DNA of 38,335 nt from Clostridiales bacterium (GTDB lineage Bacteria > Bacillota > Clostridia > Caldicoprobacterales > DTU083), in NCBI GenBank assembly GCA_012837325.1, contig DURK01000127.1, positions 1 through 38,335 of the forward strand, read 5' to 3'. A model generated the notes under the pieces. It searched no databases and was not told the origin of the DNA. It was given only the letters and a program-made list of their open reading frames with translations. Of this stretch, positions 3,510-6,717 are shown piece after piece. The position numbers and the translations under genes are program-made. The stretch's first letter is position 1, and the number at the start of each line of letters is the position of its first letter.

Positions 3510-4331
3510 CTGAGAATTAAAAGGAATGAACGGATTGCGGCTATGACCCGCATTTTGTGCAGCCATCCCAATCAAATTTTTACCTTGCATGATTTCAGCG
3601 AACTTTTTCAATCGGCCAAGTCTACAGTTTGTGAAGATATTGCCATAATTCGCGACACCCTGCTGGAATTCGGTCTGGGTGATCTGGAATCCATAACAGG
3701 AGCAGGGGGCGGTGTTCGGTTTATCCCTCTGGCTGATAACCGAGACAGGGCAGATTACATACACAAGCTGTGTACCACTCTGTGTGATCCCAACCGAATT
3801 TTACCCGGCGGTTACCTCTACATGAGTGATCTTCTCTATGAACCTAAGCACCTCTGCCGCATCGGTGAGATTTTGGCTGCTGAATTTCTCAGTTCCAAGC
3901 CGGATTTTGTGATCACGGTGGAAACCAAGGGTATTCCGGTGGCAATCATGACTGCTTTTGCACTGGGCTGCCCCGTTGTGGCAGCAGGCCGGGATGGTCA
4001 GATAACCGAAGGACCCCTGGTCAGCATCAATTATGTTGCCTCCTCCTCCCGCCGAATGCAGACCATGTCTCTCCCCAAGAGGGCGATAAAGGAAGGCAGC
4101 CGTGCTCTCATCATAGATGATTTTATGAAGGGCGGAGGCACTGCCCGGGGCATGGTTCAGCTGTTGAAGGAATTCAAAGTGGATGTTGCTGGAATCGGAG
4201 TGGTGATTGCCACACGAGAACCACGTGTGAAGCTGGTCAGCAACTATACCTCTTTAATGGTACTGGAGGAGGTCAGCGAAAAGGAAAATCGGATCCGATT
4301 ATCACCTTCTGAATGGATCGCCGTAAATTAA
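3510..4331 (+). CDS. purR: Purine operon repressor PurR
   Basis: PurR represses purine biosynthesis and salvage genes; PRPP binding to its phosphoribosyltransferase-like domain relieves repression. An N-terminal winged helix (including [17 protein letters not shown]) is followed by the PRTase domain with [35 protein letters not shown] and the PRPP loop [17 protein letters not shown]. The first ATG (3543) would drop the first helix: homologues begin about 11 residues earlier with a segment like [12 protein letters not shown], which is encoded here from 3513. The only start-like codon after the in-frame TAG (3507) is CTG at 3510, nine bases after GGAAGAGGGG, so I chose CTG, giving 273 residues. 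It heads the purR-spoVG-glmU segment. Confidence 0.9.
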
Positions 4332-4355: not shown

Positions 4356-4380
4356 AGGAGTATCCATTTTTTTGGCGAAT
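4356..4380 (+). promoter_or_regulatory. Candidate sigma-H promoter of spoVG
   Basis: AGGAGTA (4356-4362) and CGAAT (4376-4380) are 13 bases apart, the same geometry as the well-known B. subtilis spoVG sigma-H promoter (AGGATTT, 13 bases, GGAAT). It lies about 50 bases before the GTG start of spoVG. Confidence 0.6.
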
Positions 4381-4431
4381 AAAGACAATAGAAAAATTGC
4401 AGCTTGCTATTGCTGGAAGGTGGTGAACTGG

Positions 4432-4692
4432 GTGACCTTTACCGATGTCCGAATCCGAAAAATTGGCAGTGAGGGCAAGATGAGGGCAGTGGCTTCCGTG
4501 ACCTTCGACAACGAATTTGTGGTACATGACATCAAGGTAATAGAAGGGCAAAGCGGGTTATTTATTGCCATGCCCAGCCGAAAGACCCCGGACGGGGAGT
4601 ACCGGGATATTGCCCACCCAATCAATTCAGAAACGAGAGAAAGACTGCAAAATCTAGTATTGGAAAAGTACAACGAGTTGGGTGATGAATGA
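4432..4692 (+). CDS. spoVG: Regulatory protein SpoVG
   Basis: SpoVG is a small, very conserved nucleic-acid-binding protein affecting septation, spore cortex formation and, in other Firmicutes, virulence and cell-wall genes. The 86-residue product contains [50 protein letters not shown] and [10 protein letters not shown], matching the family end to end. The frame is open further upstream to a TTG at 4372, but that codon lies inside the candidate sigma-H promoter and homologues begin at the GTG chosen here. That GTG follows AAGGTGGTGA at good spacing. The gene is monocistronic by the sequence: its own promoter before it and a strong terminator that overlaps its stop codon. Confidence 0.96.
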
Positions 4693-4845: not shown

Positions 4846-6138
4846 ATGGAAAAATCGATTTCTGTTATTATACCGGTTTTGGGCAGCCAGTCCTCCGCAA
4901 TGCGCTCGGATATTCCGCTGGTTCTGCATGCCGTATGCGGGCGCAGCATGCTGGATTACACAATGGATACGGCGCGCTGTCTTACCGATAACATTGCTGT
5001 TTTGACAGCAGGCGGATGCGGGGAAAGCATGCATGGGCATGGGGTGGAACCCGGATTCATTCATCCATTGGCGGATGATCAGAATTCAGCCTATGCTTTT
5101 TTACAGGCTGCAGTGCAAGTAAGCGGTGATTCCGAGTATTTCATTCTACTCCCTGGAAACCTGCCTCTTGTTACGCTGTCCACCTTGCAGGATCTGCTTC
5201 AATTTGCCGGCAGTCAGCAGTTGGACGCAGTTTTGCTGGCAGCAGGTCACACTGCATTACCCGAGTTCGCGGGCCAGGTGATTTGTGTTCGTGTGAAATG
5301 GCTTGCTGACCTCCTGACAATGCATCAAAGCAAGCTGAAGGCCATTCCTATGCAGACTATGGATCTATGGCATCTATTGACTGCAGAACAGGCAAAAAAG
5401 AAGCTTTTTCATCCTGTCCACCCTGAGGAAACGATGGCAGTAACCGATCGGATTACTCTCTCCGAGGCAGAAAGAGCAATGCGGAATCGAATCAACCACA
5501 AGCATATGCAAAACGGGGTTACCTTAATCGACCCGTCCCAAACCTATATCGGGCCTGACGTATGCATTGAGCAGGATACCGTCATCTACCCGGGCAATGT
5601 TCTGGAAGGCAGCACTGTCATCGGCCGGGGCTGCACCCTGTATCCCAATAACAGGCTGAAGGATGTCCGGCTGGGGGAGGGAGTAACCCTGCAGTCTTCC
5701 GTCATTCTGGAGAGCAGCATCGGCGATAAAACCACCGTTGGGCCTTATGCCTATATCCGCCCGGGCAGTGAGATTGGAAGCGGTGTCCGCATCGGTGATT
5801 TTGTTGAGATCAAAAAATCGGTTATCGGCGAGGGAAGCAAGGTATCTCACCTGACCTATATTGGAGATGCCCGGCTGGGCAAAGATGTCAATGTAGGCTG
5901 CGGGGTGGTATGCGTCAATTACGACGGGAAAAGAAAACAAAGGGTGACCGTTGGCGATCATGCTTTTATTGGCTGCAACGTGAACCTGATCGCACCAGTG
6001 GAAGTGGAACATGATTCCTATATTGCCGCCGGCTCTACCATTACTGACAGGGTTCCGGCCAAAGCCCTGGCGATTGCCAGAGCCAGGCAGGTCAACAAGG
6101 AAGGCTGGGTAGACAAAAGAGAAAAGCAGGACGGCTGA
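4846..6138 (+). CDS. glmU: GlmU-like protein with intact acetyltransferase and degenerate uridyltransferase domain
   Basis: Normal GlmU acetylates glucosamine-1-P and then uridylates it, giving UDP-GlcNAc for peptidoglycan. Here the C-terminal left-handed beta-helix (about residues 230-420) is complete: RPGSEIG (R305), EIKKS (K323), SHLTYIGDA (catalytic H335, Y338) and VNYDG (N358, Y359). The N-terminal Rossmann half is recognisable (SDIPLVLHAVCGRSML) but lacks the LAAGxGTRM loop (IPVLGSQSSAM instead). The PK lysine is L25, the QxGTGHA motif is QNSAYAF, and the metal-binding GD is GN (N105). The half is also about 25 residues short for the family. Uridyl transfer is therefore very unlikely. 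The frame is intact, so this is not a recent pseudogene. It has its own promoter and precedes pth; prs, the usual next gene, is missing. UDP-GlcNAc synthesis would need another uridyltransferase. Confidence 0.9.
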   Translation: MEKSISVIIPVLGSQSSAMRSDIPLVLHAVCGRSMLDYTMDTARCLTDNIAVLTAGGCGESMHGHGVEPGFIHPLADDQNSAYAFLQAAVQVSGDSEYFILLPGNLPLVTLSTLQDLLQFAGSQQLDAVLLAAGHTALPEFAGQVICVRVKWLADLLTMHQSKLKAIPMQTMDLWHLLTAEQAKKKLFHPVHPEETMAVTDRITLSEAERAMRNRINHKHMQNGVTLIDPSQTYIGPDVCIEQDTVIYPGNVLEGSTVIGRGCTLYPNNRLKDVRLGEGVTLQSSVILESSIGDKTTVGPYAYIRPGSEIGSGVRIGDFVEIKKSVIGEGSKVSHLTYIGDARLGKDVNVGCGVVCVNYDGKRKQRVTVGDHAFIGCNVNLIAPVEVEHDSYIAAGSTITDRVPAKALAIARARQVNKEGWVDKREKQDG

Positions 6139-6156
6139 CGGAAAGGACAAAAGATT

Positions 6157-6717
6157 ATGTTTATCATAGCAGGGCTGGGCAATCCGGGGGAAAAATACCA
6201 TGGCAGCCGACACAATATCGGCTTTTATGTGTTGGATCTCCTGGCTCAGGCTCACGGAATCCGATTGAATAAAATCAGGCATAAGGCGGTACTGGGAGAA
6301 GGCTGGATCGGTGATCAAAAGGTAGTGCTTGCAAAGCCGCAGACCTTTATGAACAACAGCGGGGAAAGCCTGCTGGCCTTAAAGCAGTGGTACAAACCAG
6401 AGATGGGGCATATCATTGTCATCTATGACGATGTGGACCTGGATCCCGGAGTGGTTCGGATACGAGCATCGGGCAGTGCAGGCACCCACAATGGCATGCG
6501 CTCCATTCTTTATCTGCTTCAGGAATCTGATTTTCCCCGGGTGCGGGTGGGCATCGGCAGGCCTCCGGAAGGCTGGGAGCTGGCAGATTATGTACTGAGT
6601 CGTTTCCGTGAGGAGGAAATTGAGATTGTAAAAAAGGCTTGCAGCCGCGCAGCAGAAGGGGTGGAGTGCATTCTTTCCCAGGGAGTGGAGCAAGCTATGA
6701 GCAGGTACAACGGATAG
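6157..6717 (+). CDS. pth: Peptidyl-tRNA hydrolase
   Basis: Pth (SpoVC in B. subtilis) releases tRNA from peptidyl-tRNAs that drop off the ribosome. The 186-residue length is standard. FIIAGLGNPGEKY opens the protein; SRHNIGF carries the catalytic histidine (H19); KPQTFMNNSG, YDDVDLDPG (catalytic aspartate near residue 92) and GSAGTHNGMRS complete the active site. ATG follows GGAAAGG 18 bases after glmU, so the two are likely cotranscribed. The B. subtilis gene lies in the same glmU-to-mfd interval. Confidence 0.97.
   Translation: MFIIAGLGNPGEKYHGSRHNIGFYVLDLLAQAHGIRLNKIRHKAVLGEGWIGDQKVVLAKPQTFMNNSGESLLALKQWYKPEMGHIIVIYDDVDLDPGVVRIRASGSAGTHNGMRSILYLLQESDFPRVRVGIGRPPEGWELADYVLSRFREEEIEIVKKACSRAAEGVECILSQGVEQAMSRYNG

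Follow-up and report, generated by a model that had tools for sequence, protein, structure and literature searches.

Which of its two activities does the glmU-locus gene of a Clostridiales bacterium (GenBank assembly GCA_012837325.1) still have? GlmU is regarded as an essential enzyme with two functions and as a drug target. The gene lies in a 38,335-nucleotide stretch of contig DURK01000127.1 (the window), and an earlier note on this DNA had proposed that the protein might now be monofunctional, with a ruined uridyltransferase half and an intact acetyltransferase half. At a probability of about 0.85, we favor the reading that this GlmU would act only as an acetyltransferase and that a separate uridyltransferase, most likely encoded on contig C163 of the same genome, would complete the synthesis of UDP-N-acetylglucosamine (UDP-GlcNAc). 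The first component, a monofunctional protein with a dead N-terminal (N) half, is almost certainly correct and draws support from residue loss, clade-wide spread, at least three losses, and a relaxation of selection that affects the N half only.

The gene is identified as a GlmU orthologue by its place in the purR-spoVG-glmU-pth-mfd order, usual for Firmicutes, and by its top Foldseek matches, all of which are GlmU, as are its best family models. Its open reading frame (ORF) of 430 amino acids has no internal stop, in keeping with the claim that the frame carries no lesion. The whole protein scores 341.9 bits against TIGR01173, the bifunctional GlmU equivalog, below the curated cut-off of 366.85, and 413.2 bits against NF010934, below the curated cut-off of 450. 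Both shortfalls are due to the N half, which in the genome search scored only 42 bits to TIGR01173, compared with 298 bits for the C-terminal (C) half (positions 169-451).

Active-site residues were numbered as in Escherichia coli GlmU on an alignment of 34 GlmUs, using the E. coli active-site positions as anchors. All 15 uridyltransferase positions checked in the window protein were altered or deleted (L11, G14, G16, T17, R18, K25, Q76, G81, T82, the position near Y103, D105, G140, E154, N169, and N227), of which position 103 and T17 carry little weight because they vary among intact GlmUs too. SQSSAM stands in place of the GxGTRM loop and QNSAYA in place of the GTGHA loop, the anchored alignment gives alanine for R18, leucine for Q76, and threonine for N227, and a deletion has removed ~40 residues of the sugar-binding segment, among them G140 and E154. 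The residue set expected of a working uridyltransferase (GxGTRM, K25, Q76, GTGHA, D105, E154, N169, N227) is therefore not present. The earlier note had pointed to the missing GxGTRM loop, L25, QNSAYA, and N105, and the ORF and anchored alignment show that it read these residues correctly.

At the acetyltransferase site, all eight positions are intact (R333, K351, H363, Y366, N377, N386, K392, and R440), with counterparts in the window protein at R305, K323, H335, Y338, N349, N358, K364, and R412. R305, K323, H335, Y338, and N358, from which a complete site had been claimed, are thus all in place. The window protein shares its locus, architecture, and acetyltransferase site with canonical bifunctional GlmU (TIGR01173; structures from Staphylococcus aureus, Streptococcus pneumoniae, E. 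coli, and others), but differs in its destroyed uridyltransferase site, its ~40-residue deletion, and its sub-cut-off score. We found no description in the open-access literature of a GlmU reduced to an acetyltransferase and carrying a pseudo-uridyltransferase half.

How widespread is this condition? Among GlmUs of other Clostridia fetched by similarity, 75 of 75 keep all 13 positions checked, 11 of them in the uridyltransferase half. Within the order, we sampled 30 genomes from four families (f1 to f4), 13 of them from the window's own GTDB family, f1. Nine of the ten GlmU-bearing f1 genomes, representing six genera (G000, the window's genome, to G004 and G009 to G012), encode GlmU with a dead N half, and five of these nine are listed among named records as uncultured assemblies (L088-L092). 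All nine proteins share the deletion and the change of Asp105 to Asn (His in genus g9), so that aligning relatives, as the earlier note had suggested, revealed a loss that is indeed clade-wide.

In families f2 and f4, the uridyltransferase half is intact, and family f3 is graded. G023 is intact, while G020 and G021 carry GDDARM and D105N with R18, K25, and Q76 still kept; G025 shows the further losses R18G, Q76L, and GTGHA; and G022 has lost most of the uridyltransferase site together with a long segment. Judged from sequence, these are stages of active-site decay. Loss of Asp105 is common to all broken lineages and is nearly always to Asn. A tree of full-length GlmU requires three changes, all forced by well-supported branches, and a tree of the C half only also requires three, of which two are forced. 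Provided that loss is irreversible, there would have been at least three losses: in the f1 core, in G022, and in the group of G020, G021, and G025.

Family f1 also contains the opposite lesion. In G008 (L170:2562-3698), the uridyltransferase half is intact and the ORF ends at FAYIDPGR, before the acetyltransferase residues, making it a mirror image of the window gene. There, prs follows within ~100 bases of the truncated glmU, and no acetyltransferase remnant was readable after it in any forward frame. In G006 and G007 (L216, L217), where prs comes directly after spoVG, the locus has lost glmU, and genome searches found no GlmU elsewhere. Neither glmU nor purR was found in G005. The two GlmU halves have evidently been lost separately within one family, and the opposite lesion in G008 and the loss of glmU from G006 and G007 are what would be expected if both functions are replaceable.

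A stand-alone beta-helix acyltransferase of the archaeal GlmU type occurs in G006 (L171:3691-4374) and in G005 (L172:3629-4294), where it adjoins a glmM-like gene. Found in these two genomes only and absent from the window's genome, it is a possible replacement for the acetyltransferase half of GlmU. Like the window protein, it presumably supplies the acetyltransferase step only; unlike it, it has no N-terminal domain and is archaeal-GlmU-like in sequence. In a separate case, G026 (L203) has an otherwise intact GlmU that lacks ~16 residues, about one beta-helix coil, in its acetyltransferase half.

If the uridyltransferase half is dead, which enzyme supplies UDP-GlcNAc? Sporulation and cell-shape genes (mbl-like, spoVG, spoVT-like, and spoVB-like) lie in the window, and UDP-GlcNAc should therefore be needed. 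That another enzyme must make it, as previously argued, follows from the loss of the uridyltransferase half. The window's genome (2.2 Mb in 203 contigs, with an estimated completeness of 96.7%) yielded no second GlmU and no stand-alone uridyltransferase half. A search with PF00483 found no GalU in it, and a search for a UAP1-type enzyme with PF01704 gave no match, though no control genome matched either. The PF00483 matches were glgC, glgD, an 803-amino-acid Mpg-type fusion, a 458-amino-acid archaeal-GlmU-like protein, and a stand-alone 244-amino-acid protein encoded on contig C163.

The C163 protein is the f1-specific candidate among these. It occurs in 12 of the 13 f1 genomes at 64-86% identity, and the one f1 genome without it has a completeness of 71%. 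It is absent from the remaining 17 genomes of the order, whose best matches are paralogues at 26-32%. Among the nucleotidyltransferases profiled over the order (a set that did not include the C26 protein described below), only its distribution matches the f1 loss. Its gene adjoins ddh in 11 of 12 genomes, in most of which a tadA-type gene also lies beside it. The protein scores 121.7 bits against PF00483 (cut-off 21.2), the family of sugar-1-phosphate nucleotidyltransferases that includes RmlA, GalU, AglF, and archaeal GlmU, and has a complete nucleotidyltransferase signature, with LAAGYATRLYPLT..PKALL and GDN motifs. In G005 (L246:1495-3407), the start of a C163 paralogue overlaps a galactokinase-family gene, likely as a sugar-1-phosphate salvage pair, which fits a sugar-1-phosphate substrate. 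From the distribution and this neighbor of the paralogue, we infer that the C163 protein could be the replacement uridyltransferase, at rather less than even odds.

Several observations count against this assignment. The C163 protein falls far below every curated subfamily cut-off (the best, AglF, gives 90 of 400 bits), and no substrate can therefore be assigned from subfamily models. It is absent from f3, which has also lost the N half and therefore needs another replacement, and in G008 it coexists with an intact uridyltransferase half. Because many genes are family-specific, C163 may track the loss by coincidence.

Under the favored reading of a monofunctional GlmU with a separate uridyltransferase, the C-terminal beta-helix, with its complete active site, would still make N-acetylglucosamine 1-phosphate. 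The N half, given the residue loss, would no longer bind uridine triphosphate (UTP), metal, or sugar and would persist as an eroding scaffold domain. A separate enzyme, most likely the PF00483 nucleotidyltransferase encoded beside ddh, would perform uridylyl transfer to give UDP-GlcNAc, and its arrival in the f1 ancestor would have made the uridyltransferase half of GlmU redundant.

The replacement could instead be another nucleotidyltransferase of the window's genome, which we consider unlikely. The MobA-like protein on C26, the Mpg-type fusion on C14, and the archaeal-GlmU-like protein on C183 are all present there with nucleotidyltransferase domains, and of these the C183 protein most resembles the archaeal bifunctional GlmU in architecture. 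However, the C183 protein was seen in the window's genome only, and the Mpg fusion does not track the loss, being present also in f2 and f4, whose GlmU is intact. The C26 protein has 265 amino acids, and its gene lies between ispE and a spoIIR-like gene. The 458-amino-acid nucleotidyltransferase/beta-helix gene on C183 (L169:1213-2589) is clustered with a GH84-type glucosaminidase, an ABC transporter, and a ROK-type regulator, perhaps as a GlcNAc salvage route. The C14 gene (L002:13-2424) encodes a nucleotidyltransferase/phosphosugar-mutase fusion with FTEVGNT at the expected catalytic serine loop, and its mutase half may be inactive.

It is more doubtful that GlmR (YvcK) became the sole uridyltransferase. 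GlmR is a proven accessory uridyltransferase of Firmicutes (PMC10128056; PMC13046274), with Bacillus subtilis and S. aureus named in the former, and B. subtilis reportedly requires it on one medium (PMC13046274). As a maker of UDP-GlcNAc that is not GlmU (PMC10128056), it exemplifies the type of backup enzyme needed after such a loss, and it is unrelated to the PF00483 nucleotidyltransferases. TIGR01826, the GlmR model, matched in G004, which has a dead N half, in G006 and in G007, where glmU is gone, and in G008, as well as in all of f2 and in G029. However, it found no GlmR in the window's genome, in seven of the eight other f1 genomes with a dead N half, or in any f3 genome, in a search that also missed B. 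subtilis, a known carrier. The murB-rapZ-glmR-whiA cluster was not met in the 65% of the single G009 contig that was read, in stretches, and the dnaE neighborhood, the site of the cluster in two other families, has different neighbors in G009. GlmR is likely absent from the window's genome. With the two routes known in Firmicutes, the N half of GlmU and GlmR, both apparently gone there, we tentatively suggest that the C163 protein might be a third, unrecognized UDP-GlcNAc synthase whose arrival let GlmU decay both ways, with the N half dead in most genera, the C half deleted in one, and the whole gene lost from the locus in another.

What, then, keeps the N half in place? In G009 and G010, an unsaturated pair, omega was 0.39 for the N half (bootstrap 0.23-0.67) and 0.09 for the C half (0.04-0.17), whereas intact pairs from f2 and f4 gave ~0.06-0.12 in both halves. 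The N half of the f3 pair G020 and G021 is still constrained, with an omega of 0.08, consistent with recent or partial loss. An AlphaFold model built with 24 sequences (mean predicted local distance difference test score [pLDDT] 74.7, predicted template modeling score 0.58) retains an alpha/beta N domain and a beta-helix, and residues 13-24, the former nucleotide loop, form the longest stretch with a pLDDT below 50.

These data bear on a further suggestion of the earlier note, that the N half may have gained a regulatory role. Its omega remains below 1, the domain persists in nine genomes, and the model still shows it as an alpha/beta domain, all of which could point to a repurposed regulatory or partner-binding domain. 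Yet the N half has an evolutionary rate ~4 times that of the C half, the analysis identified in it neither a new domain nor a catalytic motif that has become invariant, and constraint from folding or trimer assembly is a simpler account. No positive evidence emerged for regulation; an omega below 1 is compatible with a structural role, and a new function, though possible, is unsupported. Repurposing is thus improbable, and the N half would be better described as a pseudo-enzyme domain retained for folding or assembly. It is scarcely credible that the N half retains uridyltransferase activity through catalytic residues that have been displaced. Nothing found for the window protein favors this; only the early-decay G020 and G021 keep R18, K25, and Q76. 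The window protein has lost the arginine, the lysine, the glutamine, both metal ligands, and the sugar-binding segment, and in Haemophilus influenzae GlmU K25, Q76, and D105 are described as indispensable (PMC10128056). Chance, sequencing error, a pseudogene, and a one-genome oddity are ruled out by the open frame, the nine genomes, an omega below 1, and the 75 of 75 proteins intact elsewhere.

The features of the locus are collected in Table 1. One gene known at this place in relatives is missing: prs is not present between glmU and pth in the window (6138-6157), where pth starts 18 bases after glmU. It lies between the two genes in the eight other relatives with a dead N half, as read at their loci, and is also found in G006 and G008.

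Table 1. Features of the glmU locus in the window
Feature	Position	Strand	Evidence or remarks
glmU-locus gene, 430 amino acids; predicted monofunctional GlcN-1-P (glucosamine 1-phosphate) N-acetyltransferase with pseudo-uridyltransferase N half	4846..6138	+	ORF, profiles, residue alignment
Degenerate uridyltransferase half, residues 1 to ~200	4846..5445	+	Residue table, raised omega, alpha/beta fold retained in model
Former nucleotide-binding loop, residues 13-24, without GxGTRM; longest stretch with pLDDT <50	4882..4917	+	
L25 replacing catalytic lysine	4918..4920	+	Alignment
N105 replacing metal-binding aspartate	5158..5160	+	Alignment
Deletion of ~40 residues, approximate site; sugar-binding segment with G140, E154	5245..5262	+	Alignment
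Acetyltransferase half, left-handed beta-helix; R305, K323, H335, Y338, N349, N358, K364, R412 kept	5446..6135	+	Residue table, model
purR, upstream neighbor, conserved	3543..4331	+	
spoVG, upstream neighbor, conserved; same order in relatives	4372..4692	+	
pth, downstream neighbor	6157..6717	+	

Taken at this strength, the locus would represent a cell-wall-making lineage that has long lived with a dead uridyltransferase half and has come to do so repeatedly. Sister genomes with the complementary lesion, or without the gene at the locus, offer a natural dissection of a bifunctional enzyme. Annotation as bifunctional GlmU overstates what such genes are likely to do, and the loss of half of GlmU predicts that an unrecognized UDP-GlcNAc pyrophosphorylase would be at work in these bacteria.
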